The notes under the pieces: generated by a model | Database searches by the model: none | Told to the model about the DNA's origin: nothing | Seen by the model: only the letters and a program-made list of their open reading frames with translations | Part shown: positions 768 through 63,490 of the stretch, piece after piece | How positions within the stretch are numbered: the stretch's first letter is position 1 | Layout of the letters: each line of letters begins with the position of its first letter | From: a virus | Reading direction: 5' to 3' (one strand) | DNA: 64,000 bases | Virus record (IMG/VR): IMGVR_UViG_3300022562_001969 | Location: 22,115-86,114 of that record | Made by a program: the position numbers and the translations under genes

Positions 768-1724
768 GTGAGTTTTGAGATCAGGCGGAGATCGAAGCCG
801 GTGGGCGTTTTCTCGGACAACGGGACGTTGGGGCTGGATGTTTATTTGAGGCACATTGGCGGCCACGGTTATTTGAGCCGGGCCGGGGAATTGGCGCTAT
901 TTAACCAACTGGATGAGGCTTATCCGGAGCGGCTGGCCGCTAAACCGGGGGCCAGTTTCCCGGTCAACTGCCGGCCGATTGTCGCTGAAATCTCCGGCTA
1001 TTATTACAAATTGGTGGTGGCGGTGGCCAACGGCTACAAAGGGGGCCACACCCTCCCTTTCGCCGATCTCATCCAGGCCGGCAATGAGGGCCTGCTGCGG
1101 GCGATCTGGCGCTTTGATCAATCTCGCGGCCATCGCTTTTCCACCTACGCCACCTATTGGATCAGGCAGGCTGTTCTCCGGGCCATCCCGGAGCAGGGTC
1201 GCGCCATCCGGCTGCCGGTTTACCAATATAGCCGCTGGGTGCAGATCTGCCAATTGATAGATAATGGGGATCGGGATCAGGAGCCGGATTGGGCGGAAAT
1301 CGCCCGGAAAGTCAGCACCGCCGAGGCCCCGGTTACACCGGGGGGGGCGGTCCAGACCTTCCACCTGGGGCTGCGGTCGTTGACAGTCTCGCTGGATGAG
1401 CAATGGTACCCGGAGGAGGAGGAGACCGATAAATACGCGACAATTGCCGCCGAAACGCCGGGCGCGGAAGCGCTGATGGAAAAGATGGACGCCGCCGAAG
1501 TCATTAACCGGGCTTTAGATAAGCTGCCGGCCCGGCTGGCCAAAATCATCAGCCTCCGCTTTGGCCTGTCCGGGGACGCCCCGCTGATCCTGGAAGATAT
1601 TGCCAAAAAGTTTGGTCTGACCCGGGAGCGGGTCCGCCAACTGGAAAAGGAGGCGCTGGTGATGCTGCGCCAAAATGGCGACCTGGCCTGTTTGGTCGCG
1701 AAAAGTGAGACTGAAGATGGCTGA
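768..1724 (+). CDS. RNA polymerase sigma factor, sigma-70 family (short, RpoD-like)
   Basis: The protein has 318 residues and a GTG start at 768, supported by an aggagg box at about 750-755. Residues about 24-50 (LDVYLRHIGGHG) resemble region 1.2. Residues about 85-170 hold region 2, with DLIQAGNEGLLRAIWRFD and the FSTYATYWIRQAV helix that melts and recognises the -10 element. Residues about 245-305 hold region 4, with FGLTRERVRQLEKEAL binding the -35 element. It is shorter than a housekeeping sigma and lacks region 1.1, so it is probably an alternative group 2/3 factor. An acidic linker (about residues 210-230) lies between regions 3 and 4. Its regulon is unknown. Confidence 0.9.
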   Translation: MSFEIRRRSKPVGVFSDNGTLGLDVYLRHIGGHGYLSRAGELALFNQLDEAYPERLAAKPGASFPVNCRPIVAEISGYYYKLVVAVANGYKGGHTLPFADLIQAGNEGLLRAIWRFDQSRGHRFSTYATYWIRQAVLRAIPEQGRAIRLPVYQYSRWVQICQLIDNGDRDQEPDWAEIARKVSTAEAPVTPGGAVQTFHLGLRSLTVSLDEQWYPEEEETDKYATIAAETPGAEALMEKMDAAEVINRALDKLPARLAKIISLRFGLSGDAPLILEDIAKKFGLTRERVRQLEKEALVMLRQNGDLACLVAKSETEDG

Positions 1725-3363: not shown

Positions 3364-3984
3364 GTTTCAATCTCTCATTCGAGATAATCGGCCTTTGAAC
3401 CTGACGCAAAAAGCGGCGCAAAAAATGGCGCAGATTGAGTTTCAATCTCTCATTCGAGATAATCGGCCTTTGAACAGCATCTAACCACATCTAGCAATAG
3501 GCAAAAAAGAGGTTTCAATCTCTCATTCGAGATAATCGGCCTTTGAACATAAAAATAGTATACCATAAATTTGCCGAGTGTGCAGTTTCAATCTCTCATT
3601 CGAGATAATCGGCCTTTGAACTGATGTTAAGATTGTGGGGACGGTGGCCAGCTTGTTGTTTCAATCTCTCATTCGAGATAATCGGCCTTTGAACCAGATA
3701 ATGGCCAAGGTTGCCAAGTATTACGGTGTGTTTCAATCTCTCATTCGAGATAATCGGCCTTTGAACAGGACAAATGAGCGGAATTGTAGAGGTTGTAAAC
3801 GGGTTTCAATCTCTCATTCGAGATAATCGGCCTTTGAACAGTGACGATCCACTAGCAGGCGCAACTTTTTAAGGAGTTTCAATCTCTCATTCGAGATAAT
3901 CGGCCTTTGAACGCGGGCGCAATTGGATGAGGCCATCAATGAGGCGGGTTTCAATCTCTCATTCGAGATAATCGGCCTTTGAAC
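3364..3984 (+). CRISPR. CRISPR array A: nine identical 37-bp repeats, eight spacers
   Basis: Repeats start at 3364, 3439, 3512, 3585, 3658, 3730, 3803, 3876 and 3948. Each begins GTTTCAATCTCT and ends CGGCCTTTGAAC, and I see no mismatch between copies. Spacers are 35-38 bp. There are no cas genes in the window, so the type cannot be set; the GTTTCAAT start occurs in type I and III systems. The 36 bp on the left are too short for a leader before the toxin operon starts. The right end runs straight into heptad repeats. Uniform repeats suggest a recently active array. Confidence 0.95.
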
Positions 3985-5091: not shown

Positions 5092-5120
5092 GTTTTCCCC
5101 ACAGGCGTGGGGGTGAACCG
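5092..5120 (-). CRISPR. Orphan 29-bp type I-E-like CRISPR repeat in a 5' untranslated region
   Basis: The minus strand reads CGGTTCACCCCCACGCCTGT then GGGGAAAAC, the same repeat as at 15080, 16928 and 16982 apart from one or two bases. Its last bases touch the ggaggag ribosome-binding site of the gene at 5130. There is no partner repeat nearby. The hairpin of such a repeat would form right at the ribosome-binding site. Confidence 0.8.
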
Positions 5121-9435: not shown

Positions 9436-11085
9436 TTATATCTCCAACCGCCCTTGTGTTGGCCCTGCTCTTTCTTCTCTTTGGGCTTGTTTGAAGGTTC
9501 CATAGGCGGGCGGCATTTGTACACTTGCCCCCCCTAACAACGCCTCAATGGTAAGTATCTGAATTTTAGGGTATTTTTGGCCCCAGGCTACAGCCTCATA
9601 AAAACCGGCTGACACCGCCTCCTGGATCATCGGCTGCGTTGGTTCTTCCAGGGTGATAAAAACGCCGATAGCCGCCTTTTCCCGTTCAACCGTCCCAACC
9701 AGATCACGAATATCCCGGCTTGACACCTTGCCGCTCTTGACTTGCGCTAAAACCCGCTTAGGTTTGCCTTTTGCCGTATCAATAAAGGTGATAACCCCAT
9801 CGATCCCTTTATCCGCTCCTTTTTTGCCCTTTTTACTGCCCTGGGTCGCTTTGCCCGGTCTGGCCCTAACTAACGACAAGGCCCACCATTCAAACTGAAA
9901 GCGGTCTTGTTCTGCCAGAAAACGAGCAGAGCCTATTGTTTCAGGCTCGCCCTTGACTTCAAACGTTGTGTCCGGAAAGGCTTCTTGTAGACGATATTTT
10001 TGCAAGGCAATAGATAAATGGGTGATGTCAATACCTATCCACTTTCGGCCTAGTTTTTCAGCGGCTACTATCGCAGTACCACAACCGCAAAATGGATCAA
10101 GGACTACATCACCAGGGTTGCTACTGGCTGAAATGATACGTTCTAGTAAAGGTAAAGGTTTTTGTGTAGGATAACCCAGACGTTCAGCATCAGAACTTTG
10201 CAAAGGATTTATATCAGCCCAAATGTTTGTAATAATTGTTCCTTTTTGTTCGTTCAAAAAACGTTTAAGCGCAGGACGTTTACTAAAATCATAGGAACCA
10301 TCTTTGTGACGTGGATAATAAATGCGCCCTTCATCGTGTAACTTTTGCATGGTTTCAGGTTTATAACGCCAACCTTTAGCAGGATACGGAAAGCCTAGCC
10401 ATTCGTACATCATATTGGGTCTAGGATTTGGACTTGTCATATTATCCAAACGATATAAACCGCGTCCATTATTATCATCAAATCGGTAATTTTTTTGGAT
10501 ATATTCCAAATCATATGGTCCATATTGAACAATAAACAGGTTTTTTTTGGAACGTTTATAAAAAAGAATTATGTCAGCAATATCAGCAAATTTCGTCTTT
10601 GCGTCACTATGGGCTGACTGTCGTTTCCAAATAATTTCATTGCCAAAGTTCTCAGCCCCAAAAATAGTATCAAGGATGACCTTCAAATAATGGCTTGCTG
10701 TTGGGTCACAATGCAGATATAAGCTACCAGTAGGGTTCAATACCCGATGAAGTTCAACCAATCGACTAGCCATCATAACCAAATAAGCCATCATTTGGTT
10801 AGCGCCAATAAAATCACGCATGGCCCCAATCATCTTACTTATATGATCTGGTGATTCTGTTATCAATTCGTGATAGGTTTCCTCAGCGGCCGCGTTCCAG
10901 TGCCAAGTATCATCAAAAGCCGTTATCTGCGCCTGGCTATCTTGCCCACTTTCATCTTTGAATAAGACATTATAGCTGCGCTTTGAGTTAAAGGGGGGGT
11001 CAAGATAGACTAAATCAATACTTTCATCTGCTATGTAATCACGTAGAATTTGAAGGTTATCGCCATAATAAAGGGTATTTTTCAT
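9436..11085 (-). CDS. DNA methyltransferase fused to a Mrr-like nuclease domain
   Basis: The start MKNTLYYGDNLQ at 11085 is preceded by aggtgg and gives 549 residues; the longer upstream frame runs through heptads. LDPPFNSKRSYN (residues 28-39) is motif IV, and LDPFCGCGTA (about 329-338) is motif I. The IV-before-I order marks a beta-class N6-adenine/N4-cytosine enzyme. Residues about 423-515 add GIDGVITF, AQVKSGKVSSRDI and IGVFITLEEPT. This matches Mrr-type PD-(D/E)XK nucleases with D429, Q448 and K450. One chain may thus modify and cut DNA, or read modification. It faces the STAND gene divergently. Confidence 0.85.
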   Translation of the reverse strand: MKNTLYYGDNLQILRDYIADESIDLVYLDPPFNSKRSYNVLFKDESGQDSQAQITAFDDTWHWNAAAEETYHELITESPDHISKMIGAMRDFIGANQMMAYLVMMASRLVELHRVLNPTGSLYLHCDPTASHYLKVILDTIFGAENFGNEIIWKRQSAHSDAKTKFADIADIILFYKRSKKNLFIVQYGPYDLEYIQKNYRFDDNNGRGLYRLDNMTSPNPRPNMMYEWLGFPYPAKGWRYKPETMQKLHDEGRIYYPRHKDGSYDFSKRPALKRFLNEQKGTIITNIWADINPLQSSDAERLGYPTQKPLPLLERIISASSNPGDVVLDPFCGCGTAIVAAEKLGRKWIGIDITHLSIALQKYRLQEAFPDTTFEVKGEPETIGSARFLAEQDRFQFEWWALSLVRARPGKATQGSKKGKKGADKGIDGVITFIDTAKGKPKRVLAQVKSGKVSSRDIRDLVGTVEREKAAIGVFITLEEPTQPMIQEAVSAGFYEAVAWGQKYPKIQILTIEALLGGASVQMPPAYGTFKQAQREERAGPTQGRLEI

Positions 11086-11198
11086 TGGTTGACCACCTGA
11101 CCAGGCCAGGCTATAACAAATGGCAAGTGAACGGTTCACCATCATGCCCGTGGAGAATACCCTGATTTTATCCGAGTTTGGGATGACAGGCAAAAAAG

Positions 11199-11229
11199 AC
11201 GGTCGTCCATCGTCCATCGCCCATCGTCG
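11199..11229. repeat. GC-type heptads
   Basis: Three CGTCCATCG-type units lie between the methyltransferase start and the promoter at 11278. Confidence 0.8.
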
Positions 11230-11277
11230 GTTACTTGTTTTCAGGCCAAAAGGGTATATAATTGATTTAGCGACATT

Positions 11278-11306
11278 TTGGCTTGATAGTCTGATCAAGA
11301 TATAAT
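11278..11306 (+). promoter_or_regulatory. Promoter in front of the structured leader RNA
   Basis: TTGGCT and a perfect TATAAT are 17 bp apart. The predicted start (about 11312-11314) falls exactly at the base of the RNA structure at 11310-11381. Confidence 0.6.
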
Positions 11307-11309
11307 AGT

Positions 11310-11381
11310 AAAAGAAGCTCCAACCTCTGACAGGCTATCTGTCCAAAGTGTCGCAACTTGAGAGGTCTGGGGCTTCTTTTT
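11310..11381 (+). ncRNA. Candidate self-terminating structured RNA upstream of the STAND ATPase
   Basis: The closing stem pairs 11310-11322 with 11368-11380 (13 bp, one G-U), extended by ACCTCT with AGAGGT. Inside, GACAG pairs with CTGTC, and CAAAGT with ACTTG, giving a three-way junction. The 3' arm ends in CTTTTT, like a terminator. With a promoter just upstream this is either a roughly 70-nt small RNA or an attenuator controlling the gene at 11462. It matches no RNA family known to me. Confidence 0.55.
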
Positions 11382-11461
11382 GGTGCTTCAGGATTTTCCG
11401 TGGGAACCACTATATCGCCATACAAGAAAAGTAAGCCAACTTTCAAAGATAGGTTCGCAAG

Positions 11462-13513
11462 ATGACTGAAAGCCGCCAACCTGGTAGGAATTTTAGGGAT
11501 GAATTACTTAAGATTTTGTCAGGGATGACCGCTTTGGATGACCCTGACAACCGATATCGGCTATTGGACAAGTTGCCACTAGAGGCAGTAGCAACCATAC
11601 GACGCAATTCTGCTAAGGGGACCGACCTATACAATATCGTTCAGGCTGCCGAAGGATGGGGACAATTGACCTCTGGAGAGTGGGCCTTGGTCGTTATCGC
11701 CCAAAACGCCCTATCTCTAGTTAAAGGAACCCACCCCGGTCGTCAGCTAGAGGCTCTTTTAGCTGAAAGGGTTATTCATCAGGCCAAGCCAGGCCGGCAG
11801 ATCCCCCTTGATCTGCCAGCGCGAGAGGAGAATTTTATAGACCGTAAGGACGAACTGGTATCTCTACTCACCGAATTACAACCAGGACGAGTAGTCACTT
11901 TGACTGGGCCGGGGGGCATGGGCAAGACTGCCCTGGCCGCGGAAGCCGTTGGCCAACTGGTGGTTGATCATAAGCCCCCTGAGCGTTTCCCGGATGGCAT
12001 CTTCTTTCATAGCTTTTACAACCAACCCCAAGCCGGTTTAGCCCTGGAAAGTCTGGCCCTGGCCTTTGGCGAGGAAGCCAGGCCAACGGCCCAGGTAGCG
12101 GCACAACGGGCGTTGAGCGGCCGGCAGGCCTTATTGGTGTTGGATGGCGCTGAAGATGCGGATGACTTGGCGGCCGTGTTAGCGGTGCGCGGGGGGTGTG
12201 GGGTTTTAATAACCAGCCGTAATCGGGGCGATGCGCCGGCCGTGTTGCAAGACCTGGCGCCCCTCAAACAGCAAGACGCCCTGGACTTATTACAACGCTG
12301 GGCTGAAGCGCAGCTTGATGACCAGGCGGCGGCCATTGCCATCTGCGAACTGGTGGGGAGGCTGCCGCTGGCGGTGCGTCTGGTAGGGCGGTATCTGCGT
12401 GAGACCGGGGAGACGGCCAGCGAGTATCTAGCCTGGTTACAAGAAACCCCGTTAGAGGCCCTGAACCAGGGGCGGCGACGCGAAGAAAGTATACCTGTCT
12501 TACTTGAGCGCAGTCTAAAGCAGGTCAGTGAGGCGGCGCGGCAAGTGTTGGCGGTGGCCGGCCGGCTGGCGCTGGCCCCGCTGCAACAAGAGGTGATGGG
12601 GGCCGCTTTGGCAGCCGAAGCGCGTGAGGTGAGACAGTGGTTAGGAGAATTGGTGCGCTATGGCTTGCTGAGCCGGGACAAAGGGCGTTATGCCATCAGT
12701 CACGCCCTCATTCACACCTACGCCAGTGAGCGGCTCAATGTGGCGGAGGAGATGGTCGAGCGGTTGGTGGCTTTCTATGTCGCTTTGGCTGAACACTTTA
12801 GCCAGCAAGGATTGGCAGGCTACCAGGCGCTTGATGGGGAGCGGCCTCACCTGCTGCGCTTGATTGCAGGCTGCGCGAAAGGAGATGATTGGCTGGGGGT
12901 TCGCAAGCTGGTCTGGGCCATTGATGGTTATTTGTCAATTCAGGGTCACGCCAGCGAACGACAAACTGCCCTAGCGACAGGGCTAACAGCCGCCCAACAA
13001 CTGGGCGACCGCCAAGATGAAGGGGCATTTTTAGGCAGCCTGGGGACCGCCTACTACGACCAGGGGGAGCTGGACAAAGCCATCGCCCATTCTCAGCAAG
13101 CCCTGGTCATCCACCGCGAGATTGGCTACCGCCAGGGGGAGGCTGCTGTTTTAGGCTACCTGGGAACCGCCTACAGCATCCAGGGGGAGCTGGCCAAAGG
13201 CATCGACCATTATCAGCAAGCCCTGGTCATCCACCGCGAGATTGGCTACCGCCAGGGGGAGGCTTATAATTTAGGCATCCTGGGTCTCGCCTACCGCGCC
13301 CAGGGGGAGAGGGCCAAAGCCAGAGAATACTTAGCCCAGGCGCTCACTATTTTTGAGGCGATCAAATCGCCCCAGGCAGACGCAATTCGTGAACAGTTGA
13401 CTATGCTGACTATGTTAGGCCGCCTCCATATACTCTTAGCAATGTGTCAGGCCATCTACGAGAAAGGATTGATGAGGCAGCTTTTGCCGCTTTTCAAAAG
13501 GCTTATTCACTAA
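11462..13513 (+). CDS. STAND NTPase: effector-associated domain, NB-ARC, TPR
   Basis: The 683-residue protein begins with a helical 90-residue domain (ALDDPDNRYRLLDKLPLEAV, then TDLYNIVQAAEGWGQL) resembling bacterial effector-associated domains. The NB-ARC module has Walker A TGPGGMGKT (148-156), Walker B ALLVLDGAED (223-232), sensor-like GVLITSRNR (247-255) and the GRLPLA motif (299-304). A winged-helix part ends near residue 450. TPR-like repeats (about 510-640, GTAYYDQGELDKAIAHSQQA and two copies) form the sensor end. Such proteins detect invasion and recruit effectors through death-like adaptor domains. The effector partner is not fused here. Confidence 0.85.
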   Translation: MTESRQPGRNFRDELLKILSGMTALDDPDNRYRLLDKLPLEAVATIRRNSAKGTDLYNIVQAAEGWGQLTSGEWALVVIAQNALSLVKGTHPGRQLEALLAERVIHQAKPGRQIPLDLPAREENFIDRKDELVSLLTELQPGRVVTLTGPGGMGKTALAAEAVGQLVVDHKPPERFPDGIFFHSFYNQPQAGLALESLALAFGEEARPTAQVAAQRALSGRQALLVLDGAEDADDLAAVLAVRGGCGVLITSRNRGDAPAVLQDLAPLKQQDALDLLQRWAEAQLDDQAAAIAICELVGRLPLAVRLVGRYLRETGETASEYLAWLQETPLEALNQGRRREESIPVLLERSLKQVSEAARQVLAVAGRLALAPLQQEVMGAALAAEAREVRQWLGELVRYGLLSRDKGRYAISHALIHTYASERLNVAEEMVERLVAFYVALAEHFSQQGLAGYQALDGERPHLLRLIAGCAKGDDWLGVRKLVWAIDGYLSIQGHASERQTALATGLTAAQQLGDRQDEGAFLGSLGTAYYDQGELDKAIAHSQQALVIHREIGYRQGEAAVLGYLGTAYSIQGELAKGIDHYQQALVIHREIGYRQGEAYNLGILGLAYRAQGERAKAREYLAQALTIFEAIKSPQADAIREQLTMLTMLGRLHILLAMCQAIYEKGLMRQLLPLFKRLIH

Positions 13514-13817: not shown

Positions 13818-14012
13818 GGACGATGGACGACCGGCGGCGACTTAAGACTGCGGCCGCCCATCGTCCATCGTCCATCGTCGCCAAGGCGAAGCGACCACCG
13901 ACGACACAACACCGCCGCCCATCGTCCATCGTCCATCGTCGCCAAGGCGAAGCGACCACCGACGACACAACACCGCCGCCCGCCGTCCATCGTCTATCGT
14001 CCATCGTCCGTC
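13818..14012. repeat. Inverted GC-type heptads with a 61-bp tandem duplication
   Basis: GACGATGGACGA units (13818-13830) face CATCGTCCATCGTC units from 13859 on. A 61-bp block containing heptads plus GCCAAGGCGAAGCGACCACC is present twice in tandem (about 13856-13916 and 13917-13977). The last units encode the DDGR tail of the integrase. Confidence 0.85.
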
Positions 14013-14935
14013 GTCAGCCCCCGGTACGCCCGGGCCCGGGCCTCATCCCGGCCGCGCAGATAGACCGAAGTCGTGGCGATGTCCGCATGGCCCAATTGGT
14101 CGCGCACCTTGTCCAGGGAGACGCCGGCTTCGAGGGCCAGCAAAGCCGAGGTGTGGCGCAGGGCGTGAAAGTAAGCCCGGGGCAAGCCGGCCGCCCTGGC
14201 CCGGCGCTTGAACAGTTGGCTCACCCCGGAGGCGGTCAGGCCGGGCCCCGGGCGGCCCCAGCGCCAGGCCGGGAAGACATGAGCGGGCCGGTGGCCACCC
14301 TCGGCCAGATAACGTTGCCAGGCCCACAAATCCCCTTTGACCGCCAAATTAAAATAGACCACCCGCCCCCGGCGCGTCTTGGCCGTCTCCGCCGCCACCT
14401 CGGCGGCCAGCTCGGCCAGGCGCAGTTGCTCCCAGCGCAGGGCGGCCACTTCCCCGGCCCGGCAGCCGGTGACCAGGGCAAAATGGACCAGGGCCAGGTC
14501 GCGCAGCTCACGCCCCTCGCCGGCGGCGGCCGCCCGGCGCAACTGGGCCAGCAGGCGCTCCACTTCGGCCCGGCTGAGGGCCACCGGCGGCAGGTGGGGC
14601 CGGGGCGGCAAGAGGCGCAATTGGGCAATTTGCCGGGTCGGGTTGCGGTTGGCCTCAATGATCTCTAATTGTTCCAAAAAGTTGAAAAATGCGCGCAGGT
14701 GGGTATAATAGGTGCGCACCGTCACCTCTCCACCGGCGGTGGAGTCTATCCAGCCCATTACCTGACCGGCCGTGACCGGCCAGGCCGGGCCGATGTAGTC
14801 GGCGAAGCGGCTTAAGATATTGGTGTAGTTCTGTAGCGTCTTCGGCCGCCACGAACGTCTCTTGAGAGTGATAAAACCTTTAATGTGCCCTCCCAGAATG
14901 GTATCCGGGAGGGACACAGAAGGCGGCGTAGCCAT
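13994..14935 (-). CDS. Tyrosine recombinase/integrase
   Basis: The 313-residue protein has an N-terminal SAM-like core-binding domain (residues about 15-100, KGFITLKRRSWRPKTLQNY). Its catalytic domain holds R159 in VTGCRAGEVAALRW, H257xxR260 in YFHALRHTSALL, H283 in LGHADIATTS and the nucleophile Y292 in TTSVYLRG. All active-site residues are present, so it is probably active. The final residues TTDDGR are coded by heptad repeats. It lies at the left side of the prophage and is the likely integrase of that or a nearby element. The att sites were not identified. Confidence 0.9.
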   Translation of the reverse strand: MATPPSVSLPDTILGGHIKGFITLKRRSWRPKTLQNYTNILSRFADYIGPAWPVTAGQVMGWIDSTAGGEVTVRTYYTHLRAFFNFLEQLEIIEANRNPTRQIAQLRLLPPRPHLPPVALSRAEVERLLAQLRRAAAAGEGRELRDLALVHFALVTGCRAGEVAALRWEQLRLAELAAEVAAETAKTRRGRVVYFNLAVKGDLWAWQRYLAEGGHRPAHVFPAWRWGRPGPGLTASGVSQLFKRRARAAGLPRAYFHALRHTSALLALEAGVSLDKVRDQLGHADIATTSVYLRGRDEARARAYRGLTTDDGR

Positions 14936-15079: not shown

Positions 15080-15108
15080 CGGTTCACCCCCACGTCTGTG
15101 GGGAATAC
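15080..15108 (+). CRISPR. Orphan type I-E-like CRISPR repeat
   Basis: A single 29-bp copy starts CGGTTCACCCCCACG and ends GGGGAATAC, with one T in place of the usual C. No partner repeat is within spacer distance. It sits in the repeat-rich interval between integrase and Tat-signal gene. Confidence 0.75.
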
Positions 15109-15169: not shown

Positions 15170-15212
15170 CCTAAAATAAAAACCTGACCGGTTTTTGAAA
15201 CCAGTCAGGTTT
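15170..15212 (-). terminator. Terminator of the Tat-signal gene
   Basis: AACCTGAC-GGTTT pairs with AAACC-GTCAGGTT across a TTG loop, followed on the minus strand by TTTTTATTTT, 10 bp after the stop codon. Confidence 0.8.
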
Positions 15213-15221
15213 GTTACCTCG

Positions 15222-15614
15222 CTACGCCGCCGTGCGTTGCTGGTATTCCACCAGCATCTCGACCGGATCGCGGCCGGCCACGCGGCCCAGGGCCTCTTCC
15301 CAGTCGCCGCTGTGGAGGATGGCGTTGAGGGATTCGACGGCCTGCACCAGGGCCACCTCAAGGTCCAGCAGGGCGACGATGTCCACCGCCCCACTCGCCT
15401 CTCTGGTAGGGTTGGCGGCGAAGTCAGTCAGGGCCGCAATGGCCTCGACCAGTCTCGCCAGCCCGGGCAACTCAGCGCCGGGGGCTACTTCTGCTTCCGG
15501 CGCCAGCTCGCCCAACGCCAGGCTGGCCGCCAGCAGACCGGTTGCCGCCAGAAATCCGCGACGGTCTATTTGGTTGTTGGTTTGGGGGTGTGCTAAAATA
15601 CGTTCAGTTCTCAT
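15222..15614 (-). CDS. Small Tat-signal protein of unknown function
   Basis: The 130-residue protein has a clear twin-arginine signal, IDRRGFLAATGLLAASLALG (residues 16-35), so it is probably exported folded. The mature part is helical and acidic (LPGLARLVEAIAALTDFA, then IVALLDLEVALVQAVESLNA). The N-terminal RILAHPQTNNQI in front of the signal resembles the start of the MltR-like protein at 4020. Its start overlaps the upstream gene (ATGA) and has the CACAGTAAG leader. No enzyme family is recognised. Confidence 0.65.
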   Translation of the reverse strand: MRTERILAHPQTNNQIDRRGFLAATGLLAASLALGELAPEAEVAPGAELPGLARLVEAIAALTDFAANPTREASGAVDIVALLDLEVALVQAVESLNAILHSGDWEEALGRVAGRDPVEMLVEYQQRTAA

Positions 15615-15799
15615 GGTAAGCTCCTCTTACTGTGTGAATTAGGGCCGGTTTGATGTTTCAGCATCAGGCCGGCTCGTTCGTTTAAAGTTGACCACATTAT
15701 ATGCCCAAACTCAGCATTAGTCAAATCCGGCTCAGGATTTATTTTTTTACGACGCTTGCGGCTGGCCGCCGGGCGACGTATACTAATAGTAGCTCTCAT
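15611..15799 (-). CDS. Short basic protein upstream of the Tat-signal gene
   Basis: The 62-residue frame has its own leader of the shared type (CTCACAGTAAGGAG) and ends in an ATGA overlap with the Tat gene. The N-terminus is strongly basic (RRPAASRKRRKK). Its last residues are coded by the next gene's leader, so it may be a leader or regulatory peptide instead of a stable protein. Confidence 0.45.
   Translation of the reverse strand: MRATISIRRPAASRKRRKKINPEPDLTNAEFGHIMWSTLNERAGLMLKHQTGPNSHSKRSLP
15615..15634 (-). promoter_or_regulatory. Shared leader motif, Tat-signal gene
   Basis: CACAGTAAGAGGAGCTTACC directly precedes the ATG. It matches the leaders at 4473, 15800 and 58444. Confidence 0.6.
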
Positions 15800-15816: not shown

Positions 15817-15867
15817 AGAGTATGGTTTCGCCTCGTTTTTTAGCCCGCGAGGCGAAGCCTGTTTTTT

Positions 15868-16172
15868 TGGACGATAGACGATGGACGATGGACGGCGGGC
15901 GGCGGTTTGACGGGCGGCGGTCGTCCATCGTCGGTCGTCGCTTCGCCTTGACGACGATAGACGATGGACGGCGGTTTGACGGTCGTCGGTCGTCCATCGT
16001 CGGTCGTCACTTTGCCTTGGCGACGCTAGACGATAGACGATAGACCGCGGTTTGACGGTCGTCTATCGTCCATCGTCGGTCGTCACTTCGCCTTGGCGAC
16101 GCTAGACGATAGACGATGGATGGCTGTATGGCATCGTCGGTCGTCGGTCGTCGGTCGTCGTTCCGCCAGGCG
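15868..16172. repeat. Large degenerate tandem and inverted heptad block
   Basis: A unit of about 75 bp (GACGATAGACGATGGAC, then GGCGGTTTGACGG, then TCGTCCATCGTCGGTCGTC, then CTTCGCCTTGGCGACG) is repeated about three and a half times. Each unit folds back on itself because heptads occur in both orientations. I see no gene in 15800-16381. The rest is a T-rich stretch ending in TTTATTTG units next to array B. Confidence 0.85.
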
Positions 16173-16381: not shown

Positions 16382-16740
16382 ATTTCAATCCACGCCCCCC
16401 GTGAGGGGAGCGACTTCGGTGAAGGAAAAAATTCCTTAACCGATGGGGTTTCAATCCACGCCCCCCGCGAGGGGAGCGACATAAAAACAGGCTTCGCTTT
16501 GCGGGCTATTTCAATCCACGCCCCCCGCGAGGGGAGCGACTTGGCCGGTCAAGGTGATCCGCCAACCGGTTGCGGTTTCAATCCACGCCCCCCGCGAGGG
16601 GAGCGACTTGCTGAAACGTTCGTGGTAGACTGTTTCAGTTTGTTTCAATCCACGCCCCCCACAAGGGGAGCGACGCGACCAGCTCATCACTATCCAATTC
16701 AAAAAGCGTTTCAATCCACGCCCCCCACAAGGGGAGCGAC
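16382..16740 (-). CRISPR. CRISPR array B: six 33-bp type I-C-like repeats, five spacers
   Basis: Repeats start at 16382, 16448, 16508, 16575, 16642 and 16708. On the minus strand they read GTCGCTCCCC...GTGGATTGAAAC, the pattern of type I-C repeats, so the leader should lie to the right. That flank (16741-16800) is AT-rich and holds the palindrome ATCTGGGTATACCCAGAT (16747-16764). Spacers are 33, 27, 34, 34 and 33 bp. The two leader-side repeats have CACAAGGGG in place of CGCGAGGGG. The last repeats end GATTGAAAT. No cas genes are nearby. Confidence 0.95.
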
Positions 16741-16927
16741 GGCAACATCTGGGTATACCCAGATTATACATAATATATATTGTGGCGCCTTTTTTGTCAA
16801 TCGGACAACCGGCTCAATATTGCTCGCTAAATGTTCTTTTTTGGGGTGGTTAAGGTACAAAATAGGCGCGAACCCTCCGGGCAATGGCTGGGCGCTTGGG
16901 GTTCGCAAACCCAGATTAAAGGATGAT

Positions 16928-17010
16928 CGGTTCACCCCCACGCCTGTGGGGAATACTCGTCCATCGTCCATCGTCGCGAAGCGGTTCACCCCCCCGCCTG
17001 TGGGGAATAC
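16928..17010 (+). CRISPR. Two type I-E-like repeats around a heptad 'spacer'
   Basis: Copies of the 29-bp repeat lie at 16928-16956 and 16982-17010. The 25 bp between them are mostly CGTCCATCG heptads, shorter than the usual 32-bp type I-E spacer. This could be a decayed array end or repeat-mediated rearrangement. Confidence 0.75.
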
Positions 17011-17143: not shown

Positions 17144-17171
17144 ACCGTGCAATAGCAGCAACGCCCAAACG

Positions 17172-17300
17172 GTCGTCCATCGTCCATCGTCAGCCGTCTA
17201 TCGTCCACCGTCCATCGTCACCCCCGGGCAGCCTTCGACAAGCTCAGGCTGCTGCGGTCGTCCATCGTCGGTCGTCCATCGTCGGTCGTCCATCGTCGCC
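17172..17300. repeat. GC-type heptads split by a CTTCGACAAGCTCAGG element
   Basis: CGTCCATCG units flank CCTTCGACAAGCTCAGGCTG (17229-17248), a separate near-palindromic element. Both are read as the C-terminal codons of the gene at 17198. Confidence 0.8.
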
Positions 17301-58463: not shown

Positions 58464-58943
58464 ATGCAAGCTGACCATAATTGTAACACCCCCCTATCAT
58501 TTGACCAATTTATAAAGCAACTCATTATCAGTTGTCCCGATTCCGATTCCGAGATCGCCATCGGCGGCGCGGCGCTGCTGGATGAGCAGCTCTACCAACT
58601 CCTGGCGGCCAGCCTGCTGGGGAGCCAGACCCAGATCGACAGCCTGCTAAACCTGGCCGGCCGCCGCAAACAGTTGGCCTACTGCATCGGCCTGATCAGC
58701 CCGGCCGAATTTGAGGAGCTGGGCGCAATAGGCAAAATCCGCAATCGCTTCGCCCACGACTTCCCCCGGCCCACCTTCCAGAGTAACGCCATCCGCCACC
58801 TGGTCAGCCTGTTGGCCAACTATCACGCCGGGCTGGTGGACGGCCTCGACCGGCGCGACATTTATCTGGGCGCCGTCCGCCACATGAGCAACCGGTTGGC
58901 GGCTCGCCTGGAAAGGGTCCGTCGTATCCGGGGCGTCGGCTAA
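58464..58943 (+). CDS. MltR-like protein, copy 2
   Basis: The 159-residue all-helical protein has IGKIRNRFAHDFPRPTFQSN, matching the RNRFAH block of copy 1 at 4020-4472. They share SLLGS/ALLGS, GLI and GLVDGL-like segments. The promoter, palindrome and leader upstream are also duplicated, showing that a whole transcription unit was copied. The N-terminus differs from copy 1. It is the only plus-strand gene between 17 and 64 kb. MltR was first described as a mannitol repressor, but most homologues have no known target. Confidence 0.7.
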   Translation: MQADHNCNTPLSFDQFIKQLIISCPDSDSEIAIGGAALLDEQLYQLLAASLLGSQTQIDSLLNLAGRRKQLAYCIGLISPAEFEELGAIGKIRNRFAHDFPRPTFQSNAIRHLVSLLANYHAGLVDGLDRRDIYLGAVRHMSNRLAARLERVRRIRGVG

Positions 58944-59548: not shown

Positions 59549-59583
59549 GTCGTCTATCGTCCATCGTCTATCGTCCATCGTCG
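59549..59583. repeat. GC-type heptads ending a gene
   Basis: CGTCTATCGTCCATCGTC units. One unit supplies the TAG stop and the last residues (DDGR) of the gene at 59568. Confidence 0.85.
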
Positions 59584-60068
59584 GCCACCCCAATTATTTT
59601 TGAGGCTAATTTTTGGGCATAGGCAAAGGGGATGACAATCCCATGCGTATTGTAGCCCTTGCTCTGACTTTTGCTTGTAGCTCGTTCAGGAAACTTAGTT
59701 TTCAATTCAGCGATCTTTTGGCGCAGATGTTCCGGTCTGAAAACTAATATCATTTTATTTAACAAGGCGGCGTACAAAATCCAATCGGCCTGGCAAGTAT
59801 ATACCCAGCCCGGAGTGCAGGGGCCATCAACTGAAACAGTCTCTAAAAAAATATTCCCGGTGTAATAGGTCTGTATCCCCGACTTGTACTCGACGAAATA
59901 AATATCCTCTCCTTTGCTGAATATTCTATCGCCCAGACACAACACCCTTTCTTGATATTTGGAGGTTTGAACGATATCGAATTCGTCGCCAAAAAAGTCG
60001 TCCAAAAAACGCTCGACATCTTTCCCATTTTTAAATTGGTCGCTTTGCACAAACCAATCATCGCCCAT
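59568..60068 (-). CDS. PD-(D/E)XK-like nuclease
   Basis: ATG at 60068 overlaps the upstream stop and gives 166 residues. The pattern FFGDEFDIVQTSKYQERVLC, then DIYFVEYKSGIQTYYTGNIF and GWVYTCQADWILYAAL, matches phage-type nucleases of this fold with D, E-x-K and a TGN...E strand. It may serve recombination or packaging. Its C-terminus DDGR comes from heptads. The E-Y-K motif carries the catalytic acid and lysine. Confidence 0.6.
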   Translation of the reverse strand: MGDDWFVQSDQFKNGKDVERFLDDFFGDEFDIVQTSKYQERVLCLGDRIFSKGEDIYFVEYKSGIQTYYTGNIFLETVSVDGPCTPGWVYTCQADWILYAALLNKMILVFRPEHLRQKIAELKTKFPERATSKSQSKGYNTHGIVIPFAYAQKLASKIIGVADDGR

Positions 60069-61182
60069 TTTTAGCCAGTTCCCCAAACATAATCCGTTCA
60101 GGTAGCAAGCGCCAACACAACCAGAAGACCGGAAACTGGGCGCTAGAGTTCCAGCCCTTGCGAGGCATTTTGAAATCGACCCTTTTATCTAACAGCATCA
60201 TTTCAAATCCATATTGCTGCAAAAGTTGTTGGGCCGTTTTTGTGCCCAACATTTCAACAGGGACCAAAAGGGCGAACGGTTTACCTAATTGGTAACATCT
60301 CTCCAGCCATTGAAATTTGATACTGAAGGGGGGATTGGTGATCAGGCAATGCCAGTGGACAGGTTCGTACTCGAAAAAGTTCTGGCCGGTTTGAATGTCA
60401 GAGGCAATAACTTGTTCCGATTCAAAACCGCCATCATATAGGGCCTCAACCAGACTAAGCTCGCCAGCCGCCGGTTCCCATATCGTCCAGCCCGGATCAA
60501 GGCGCGAAATAAGCGGGTCAAGCGCATAAGCAGGGGTTTGACAGCCGTCATACCCTTGAGGGGTGTATATATCAACCGGGCGGCTGGCCCGCTCATCTCG
60601 TTTGTAGTTATAGGCTCTCTCAGGCTGAGCCACTATTTTTTTTGCTTCCGGGATACTAATTTCACCAGATTTTACTTGCTCAAAAACCTGGGGGGCCTCG
60701 CGCTTGAGGCGCTTGGCGTCTGAAACGTAGCGGCCATTTGCGCCTACGGCGGCGGCGGCCTGGTCGCGGGCTTGACCCTTTTCGGTTAAGGAATTTTTTC
60801 CTTCACCGAAGACAGGTTCGCCATCTTTTGACTTCCCTTGTAACTGTGTGGCAACCTGTCTCTCTTTCGCCTCAGCCGCAAAAAACGGCTCGAGTTCTAC
60901 CGCCAGGGCCGCCTTTTGCCCGCTGGTCAAATGCCGTCTATGCAAATTAAGGGACACGACAAAGCTAACCAGACTGCCTTGCCCGTCCCAGGTTTTATAT
61001 CTTGGCGCAACCCCTACTTTTTGACAGGCGTTATACCGATTCCGCCCATCAATAATCTTCCCGTTGGGATGCAGCCAAATAGGTTCCAATAAGCCATTTT
61101 CTAAAATATCTTGACAAAAATCGTCAAATTCATCCCCTTGCAATAAAGGAAATAAATTCGCTACCTCGTGAAATTCTCTCAT
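60058..61182 (-). CDS. ParB-like protein with methyltransferase-type C-terminus
   Basis: The start MREFHEVANLFPLLQGDEFD at 61182 gives 374 residues; upstream codons are heptads. Residues 1-110 hold a ParB-like domain (LENGLLEPIWLHPNGKIIDG, RNRYNACQKVG). Residues 110-190 have AKERQVATQLQGKSKDGEP and GQARDQAAAAVGANGRYVSD, an HTH-like segment. The C-terminus has IWEPAAGELSLVEALYDGG (about 232-250) and CLITNPPFS (about 285-293), motifs of an N6-adenine-like methyltransferase. Positions 60782-60810 match a spacer of CRISPR array B. Confidence 0.75.
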   Translation of the reverse strand: MREFHEVANLFPLLQGDEFDDFCQDILENGLLEPIWLHPNGKIIDGRNRYNACQKVGVAPRYKTWDGQGSLVSFVVSLNLHRRHLTSGQKAALAVELEPFFAAEAKERQVATQLQGKSKDGEPVFGEGKNSLTEKGQARDQAAAAVGANGRYVSDAKRLKREAPQVFEQVKSGEISIPEAKKIVAQPERAYNYKRDERASRPVDIYTPQGYDGCQTPAYALDPLISRLDPGWTIWEPAAGELSLVEALYDGGFESEQVIASDIQTGQNFFEYEPVHWHCLITNPPFSIKFQWLERCYQLGKPFALLVPVEMLGTKTAQQLLQQYGFEMMLLDKRVDFKMPRKGWNSSAQFPVFWLCWRLLPERIMFGELAKNGR

Positions 61183-61190
61183 AATTACCT

Positions 61191-61240
61191 CGCCATCGTC
61201 CATCGTCCATCGTCCATCGTCCATCGTCGGCTGTCAATCG
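61191..61240. repeat. GC-type heptads
   Basis: CCATCGTCCATCGTCCATCG units lie between two minus-strand genes and code part of the end of one (TATDD). Confidence 0.85.
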
Positions 61241-63421: not shown

Positions 63422-63490
63422 TTCCCATCGTCCATCGTCTATCGTCCACCGTCTATCGTCCATCGTCTATCGTCAATCGTCCATCGTCGT
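63422..63490. repeat. GC-type heptads
   Basis: A run of CCATCGTCTATCGTCCACCG units separates the last two genes and codes the end of the one at 63473. Confidence 0.9.

Follow-up and report, generated by a model that had tools for sequence, protein, structure and literature searches.

A phage-borne CRISPR array lacking recognisable cas genes probably records relatives of its carrier

Array B, a CRISPR array on a phage replicon with no recognisable cas genes, is probably a virus-borne array that records relatives of the phage carrying it, and differences from its spacers in the PAM and seed of the carrier's own sites probably spare that phage. The array has a host-type repeat and leader. Its oldest spacer matches a gene of the carrier except at the PAM and seed, three of its spacers have matches clustered at that same locus, and the carrier has the conserved allele at the mismatched positions. 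The features are listed in Table 1.

Table 1. Array B and the places in the window that its spacers resemble.
Feature	Position in window	Strand	Description
CRISPR array B	16382..16740	-	five spacers between six type I-C-like repeats of 33 nt; right-to-left transcription
Spacer B1, leader-distal (oldest)	16415..16447	-	spacer of the finding
Spacer B2, 27 nt	16481..16507	-	24/27 match at 15842-15868
Spacer B3	16541..16574	-	crRNA positions 2-16 match 58888-58902
Spacer B4	16608..16641	-	crRNA positions 2-15 match 59829-59842
Spacer B5, leader-proximal (newest)	16675..16707	-	no match found
Array B leader	16741..16870	-	contains ACCTTAAC and CCAGATGTTGCC, motifs also found in host type I-C leaders
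B1 near-protospacer	60778..60810	+ (crRNA-identical strand)	30/33, flank ACC, inside ParB-like/methyltransferase gene
Gene with B1 near-protospacer	60058..61182	-	374 aa, ParB-like N-terminal domain and DNA methyltransferase domain
B2 near-protospacer	15842..15868	+	24/27, intergenic hairpin 0.5 kb from array B
Gene with B3 match	58464..58943	+	159 aa, no Pfam family
Gene with B4 14-nt match	59568..60086	-	172 aa

The array lies on a phage replicon. The window (the whole stretch of 64,000 nucleotides that we analysed) consists of bases 22115-86114 of an IMG/VR record totalling 86,114 bases and makes up most of an 85,970-bp phage genome. This genome is circular or terminally redundant, because the first and last bases of the record are identical over 144 bp and a second IMG/VR contig, 3300015263_001423, bridges the end junction at 99.99% identity. 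The first-pass annotation of this DNA had set a host array against a resident prophage, a setting that does not fit an array located on the phage's own genome. Phage genes for terminase, tape measure, tail, integrase, and ParB are present. The carrier is a phage or phage-plasmid whose host probably belongs to the Anaerolineae (Chloroflexota), sharing of the array B repeat being the one pointer to this class. We found no Cas family in a PADLOC scan of 58 phage proteins and no Cas protein among the best 25 Pfam families listed for 64 phage proteins.

Several other features of the genome were apparent. It encodes a sigma-70-like factor (window 768-1724) and the large chain of ribonucleotide reductase (L004:2-2242), and a DNA methylase/Mrr-type protein (9436-11298) adjoins an NB-ARC/TPR protein (11462-13513) that also has an effector-associated domain; this pair (window 9436-13513) possibly represents phage-carried defence genes. 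One segment is duplicated inside the phage (L003:8632-9190 and window 15198-15760, 76% identical). The 7-base unit CGTCCAT occurs in many intergenic clusters (59550-59582, 61193-61228, 63425-63488, 13853-14015, 15870-16160, 17170-17300, and others); one is at the end of a second CRISPR array, array A, others flank array B, and the second contig ends in one.

The repeat and leader of array B are, by sequence comparison, of host type, as at an Anaerolineae type I-C locus. The exact repeat (in crRNA sense, GTCGCTCCCC..GGGGGGCGTGGATTGAAAC) was found in several Anaerolineae metagenome-assembled genomes (MAGs). In one of them the repeat's array is type I-C, because genes for Cas5d, Csd1, Cas7, Cas4, and Cas1 adjoin it, and the leader motifs there are also the same. 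The leader of array B, 130 bases on the high-coordinate side, contains ACCTTAAC and CCAGATGTTGC, both common to host leaders, and a promoter-like site (TTGACA-N17-TATATT, 16800-16772). Since the leader is at the high-coordinate end, B1 is leader-distal. Its earlier designation as the oldest spacer is therefore upheld by a leader recognised from host I-C motifs, and the type I-C character that had been ascribed to the array and spacer is supported by the match of repeat and leader to the Anaerolineae I-C locus. With five spacers, array B is above the strict definition of a 'mini' array (one or two) and shorter than the host arrays, which have 58-68 repeats.

The phage also contains repeats of other CRISPR types. 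Array A (window 3364-3984) has nine identical 37-nt repeats, GTTTCAATCTCTCATTCGAGATAATCGGCCTTTGAAC, and eight spacers, and is in both contigs; its repeat was in no genome searched, including 396 of the candidate host's class. A lone exact array-A repeat at 1743-1779, 1.6 kb before array A, is a candidate solitary repeat unit, and four I-E-like repeats lie outside the arrays, at 5092-5119 (minus strand), 15081-15108, 16929-16956, and 16983-17010. Solitary repeat units have been proposed to be RNA anti-CRISPRs, or Racr (Nature 2023, PMC10651486). The likeness to Racr is in the phage's solitary repeats (5092, 15081, 16929, 16983, and 1743), which belong to CRISPR types other than that of array B and are a feature separate from it; array B differs in having true spacers and a leader.

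Spacer B1 closely but imperfectly matched the carrier's ParB-like/methyltransferase gene. On the crRNA strand B1 reads CCCATCGGTTAAGGAATTTTTTCCTTCACCGAA, and the near-protospacer reads CTTTTCGGTTAAGGAATTTTTTCCTTCACCGAA on the plus strand. The two have 29 contiguous identities, with an E value of 7e-12 against the 86-kb replicon, and 30 of 33 positions agree without gaps. As controls, reversed B1 reached only 20/33, and 189 unrelated type I-C spacers were all at or below 71% identity. The 29-base identity that the first-pass annotation had reported is confirmed, as are its coordinates. That annotation had correctly placed the differing bases at the PAM end but had counted four; there are three, at crRNA positions 2, 3, and 4 (CCCA in the spacer and CTTT in the gene, the first C matching). 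It had also correctly read the PAM-side flank as ACC, which is not the TTC of type I-C. The gene product had no match in Pfam and matched PHROG 799 (2.8e-31) and the ParB-like PHROG 4715 (2.8e-14). It is a ParB-like N-terminal domain fused to a DNA methyltransferase domain, in line with the earlier description of the gene as ParB-like.

Based on these differences, the carrier's own B1 site should escape cleavage. The site is predicted not to be a valid target because the mismatches at positions 2-4 include +2 and +3 and because the flank is not TTC. In Pseudomonas aeruginosa, I-C escape mutants had changes at positions +2 and +3 (PMC7913775), which are two of the three mismatched positions of B1. 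Counting against the reading of array B as a weapon against relatives, the B1 crRNA is strongly self-complementary (-13.9 kcal/mol) and may be a poor guide.

Four of the five spacers resembled the carrier imperfectly, which suggests relatives of the carrier as their source; B5 matched nothing. B3 matched over 15 bases and stayed in frame with the gene in which the match lies (RNRLADHLDRP versus SNRLAARLERV). B4 matched over 14 bases, and an in-frame TAG led us to reject the idea that it is homologous, in frame, to gene 59568-60086. The repeat in front of B2 has T as its last base, and TTT flanks the B2 match in the carrier; a PAM-derived final repeat base has been proposed for I-C systems (PMC8482600). 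Protection of the carrier is less certain at the B2 site, with just three mismatches and the TTT flank.

The matches of B1, B3, and B4 all fell within 2 kb of one phage locus. Weighing against the favoured reading, B3 and B4 match over short stretches (at least 14 exact nucleotides), B4 is out of frame with its gene, and B5 has no match. A random 34-mer of related DNA would match 14 bases somewhere in the 2 kb to either side of the B1 site with a probability of approximately 0.001, and two of four spacers would do so by chance with a probability of approximately 6e-6, for an interval picked after the matches were seen. None of the 189 unrelated I-C spacers had such a match near the B1 site, and host type I-C spacers gave no match above chance to this phage.

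We weighed four other explanations, two of which concern the origin of the matched sequence and its placement in the assembly. The block matched by B1 is indeed an inverted repeat, as the first-pass annotation had pointed out; its arms pair at 11 of 12 positions around a 4-nt loop (-13.9 kcal/mol, z -5). The annotation had cautioned that spacer and gene copy might both stem from a dispersed palindromic element, making the match to the gene incidental, and the block of identity does start exactly at the palindrome edge and stop one base beyond it. This origin is very unlikely, however: allowing as many as three mismatches, we found no further copy in the 86-kb record, nor was there one in 396 genomes from the class of a candidate host, and a search of IMG/VR for the B1 27-mer returned this virus alone, in its second contig. 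Because there were no other copies and because the palindrome core, GGAAAAAATTCC, is at the homologous position in a distant Anaerolineae homolog (L054), the palindrome appears, as far as the genomes searched can tell, to belong to the gene itself and to be no mobile element. B1 and B4 were unusually self-complementary compared to 189 host spacers; hairpin folding as a shared trait of array B spacers was rejected, as B2, B3, and B5 do not fold unusually well. Misassembly of a host fragment into the phage contig would also account for array B. The second contig covers all but window 13820-48106, so the array B stretch is known from one assembly; array B sits between two clusters of short dispersed repeats, and it is at such a repeat that the second contig breaks. 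Against this, array A and the lone array-A repeat are in both contigs, so the phage carries CRISPR DNA; B2 matches phage DNA 0.5 kb away; and five spacers are few next to the 58-68 repeats of host arrays. We give misassembly very little credence.

The other two explanations depend on which copy of the B1 sequence changed. The carrier has GAAAAGGGTC on the PAM side where spacer B1 has GATGGG. The homolog L054 also has GAAAAGGGTC and another homolog, L053, has CAAAAGGGCA; the corresponding protein motif is EKGQARDQ in the carrier, EKGRARDQ in L054, QKGKSRDQ in L053, and EKGRS in Leptospira phage LE1. That the carrier-type allele is shared with distant homologs argues that it is the conserved state and that the change lies on the side of the spacer source, although the homologs compared are few and distant. 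This disfavours the first-pass reading, in which a host CRISPR array once targeted a resident (pro)phage that then escaped by PAM and seed change. Every difference is at the PAM and seed end, where I-C escaper mutations occur (PMC7913775), as that reading would have it, but it calls for several substitutions or an indel and not a single escape mutation, it makes the conserved sequence the derived one when GATGGG is the odd one, and it is at odds with the location of array B on the phage replicon. We consider it quite improbable. It is also unlikely that the carrier took B1 from its own ancestor and that only variants altered in the PAM and seed survived. A 29-nt stretch without a single difference points to a very close source, and the restriction of the differences to positions 2-4 and the PAM fits such self-acquisition and self-escape; again, the carrier allele and not that of the spacer is the conserved one, and the mismatches of B2 and B3 to the carrier are scattered, as they would be if these spacers came from a divergent source.

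We favour the interpretation that array B, with no recognisable cas genes, is a record of the carrier's relatives. Its host-type leader would drive transcription, and the host's type I-C effector would take up the resulting crRNAs and turn them on related phages that enter the same cell, giving superinfection exclusion. B1 would have been captured from the homologous ParB-like/methyltransferase gene of a relative, and the carrier copy, differing at positions 2-4 and in the PAM, would be left uncleaved. B3 and B4 would be later acquisitions from the same locus, no more than 2 kb away, the pattern expected of adaptation primed by the B1 target; their clustering near B1 suggests such adaptation on the relative. 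We regard it as possible, and hold it tentatively, that the phage array was extended by priming in this way, with B1, old and imperfect, leading to B3 and B4 from the same locus of the relative. If so, the phage would be keeping its record of sister phages up to date, with its own allele still protected.

We searched for the relative that array B would target. A perfect B1 protospacer with a TTC PAM, the check suggested by the first-pass annotation, would read ...ACCGATGGG-GAA in the ParB-like gene. None was found: searches of IMG/VR with a 27-nt core of B1 and a 25-nt core of B3 gave no perfect protospacer, and neither did the relatives compared or the 396 genomes of the class, which weighs against the favoured interpretation. 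Within IMG/VR, nothing close to the targeted locus turned up beyond this virus's own second contig. Homologs of the locus in plasmids, phages, and Anaerolineae were all distant, and a scan of genome contigs with the ParB-like domain found no close relative.

Virus-borne CRISPR arrays are already known, and array B probably adds one more. The use of such arrays between sister viruses has been demonstrated for viruses of archaea, and huge phages have been reported to have them too; a clear example from a bacterial phage of ordinary size, in which near-self spacers gather at a single locus, would make CRISPR conflict between phages, and the avoidance of self, testable in Chloroflexota. Array B also serves as a warning that a self-matching spacer beside phage genes need not signal host immunity and phage escape.

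The closest parallels are with viruses of Sulfolobales and with huge phages. The portogloboviruses SPV1 and SPV2 carry mini-CRISPR arrays against sister viruses (Medvedeva et al. 2019, PMC6858448), and their own orthologous loci are mutated, preventing self-targeting (PMC6858448). Like theirs, array B is on the virus and has a host-like repeat, a promoter-bearing leader, and no recognisable cas genes; the systems are also alike in own loci that are changed with respect to self-targeting, in some targets near the array, and in stand-alone repeats, which for SPV1 and SPV2 are in related elements. The spacers of SPV1 and SPV2 are related to sister viruses, whereas those of array B point to relatives that we infer, and for array B interference is likewise a prediction. 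The carrier of array B differs in being a tailed phage of bacteria, in its type I-C repeat, and in having five and eight spacers in its arrays and not one or two. Huge phages encode compact CRISPR arrays that lack genes for interference or adaptation and have a median of six repeats (Al-Shayeb et al. 2020, PMC7162821). Array B is similar in its repeat shared with the predicted host, its compactness (six repeats), and its spacers against other phages, which for array B would be the carrier's relatives. The genome that carries it is 86 kb, in contrast to over 200 kb for the huge phages, and unlike the arrays of huge phages, array B has several spacers on one locus that is homologous to the carrier's own.
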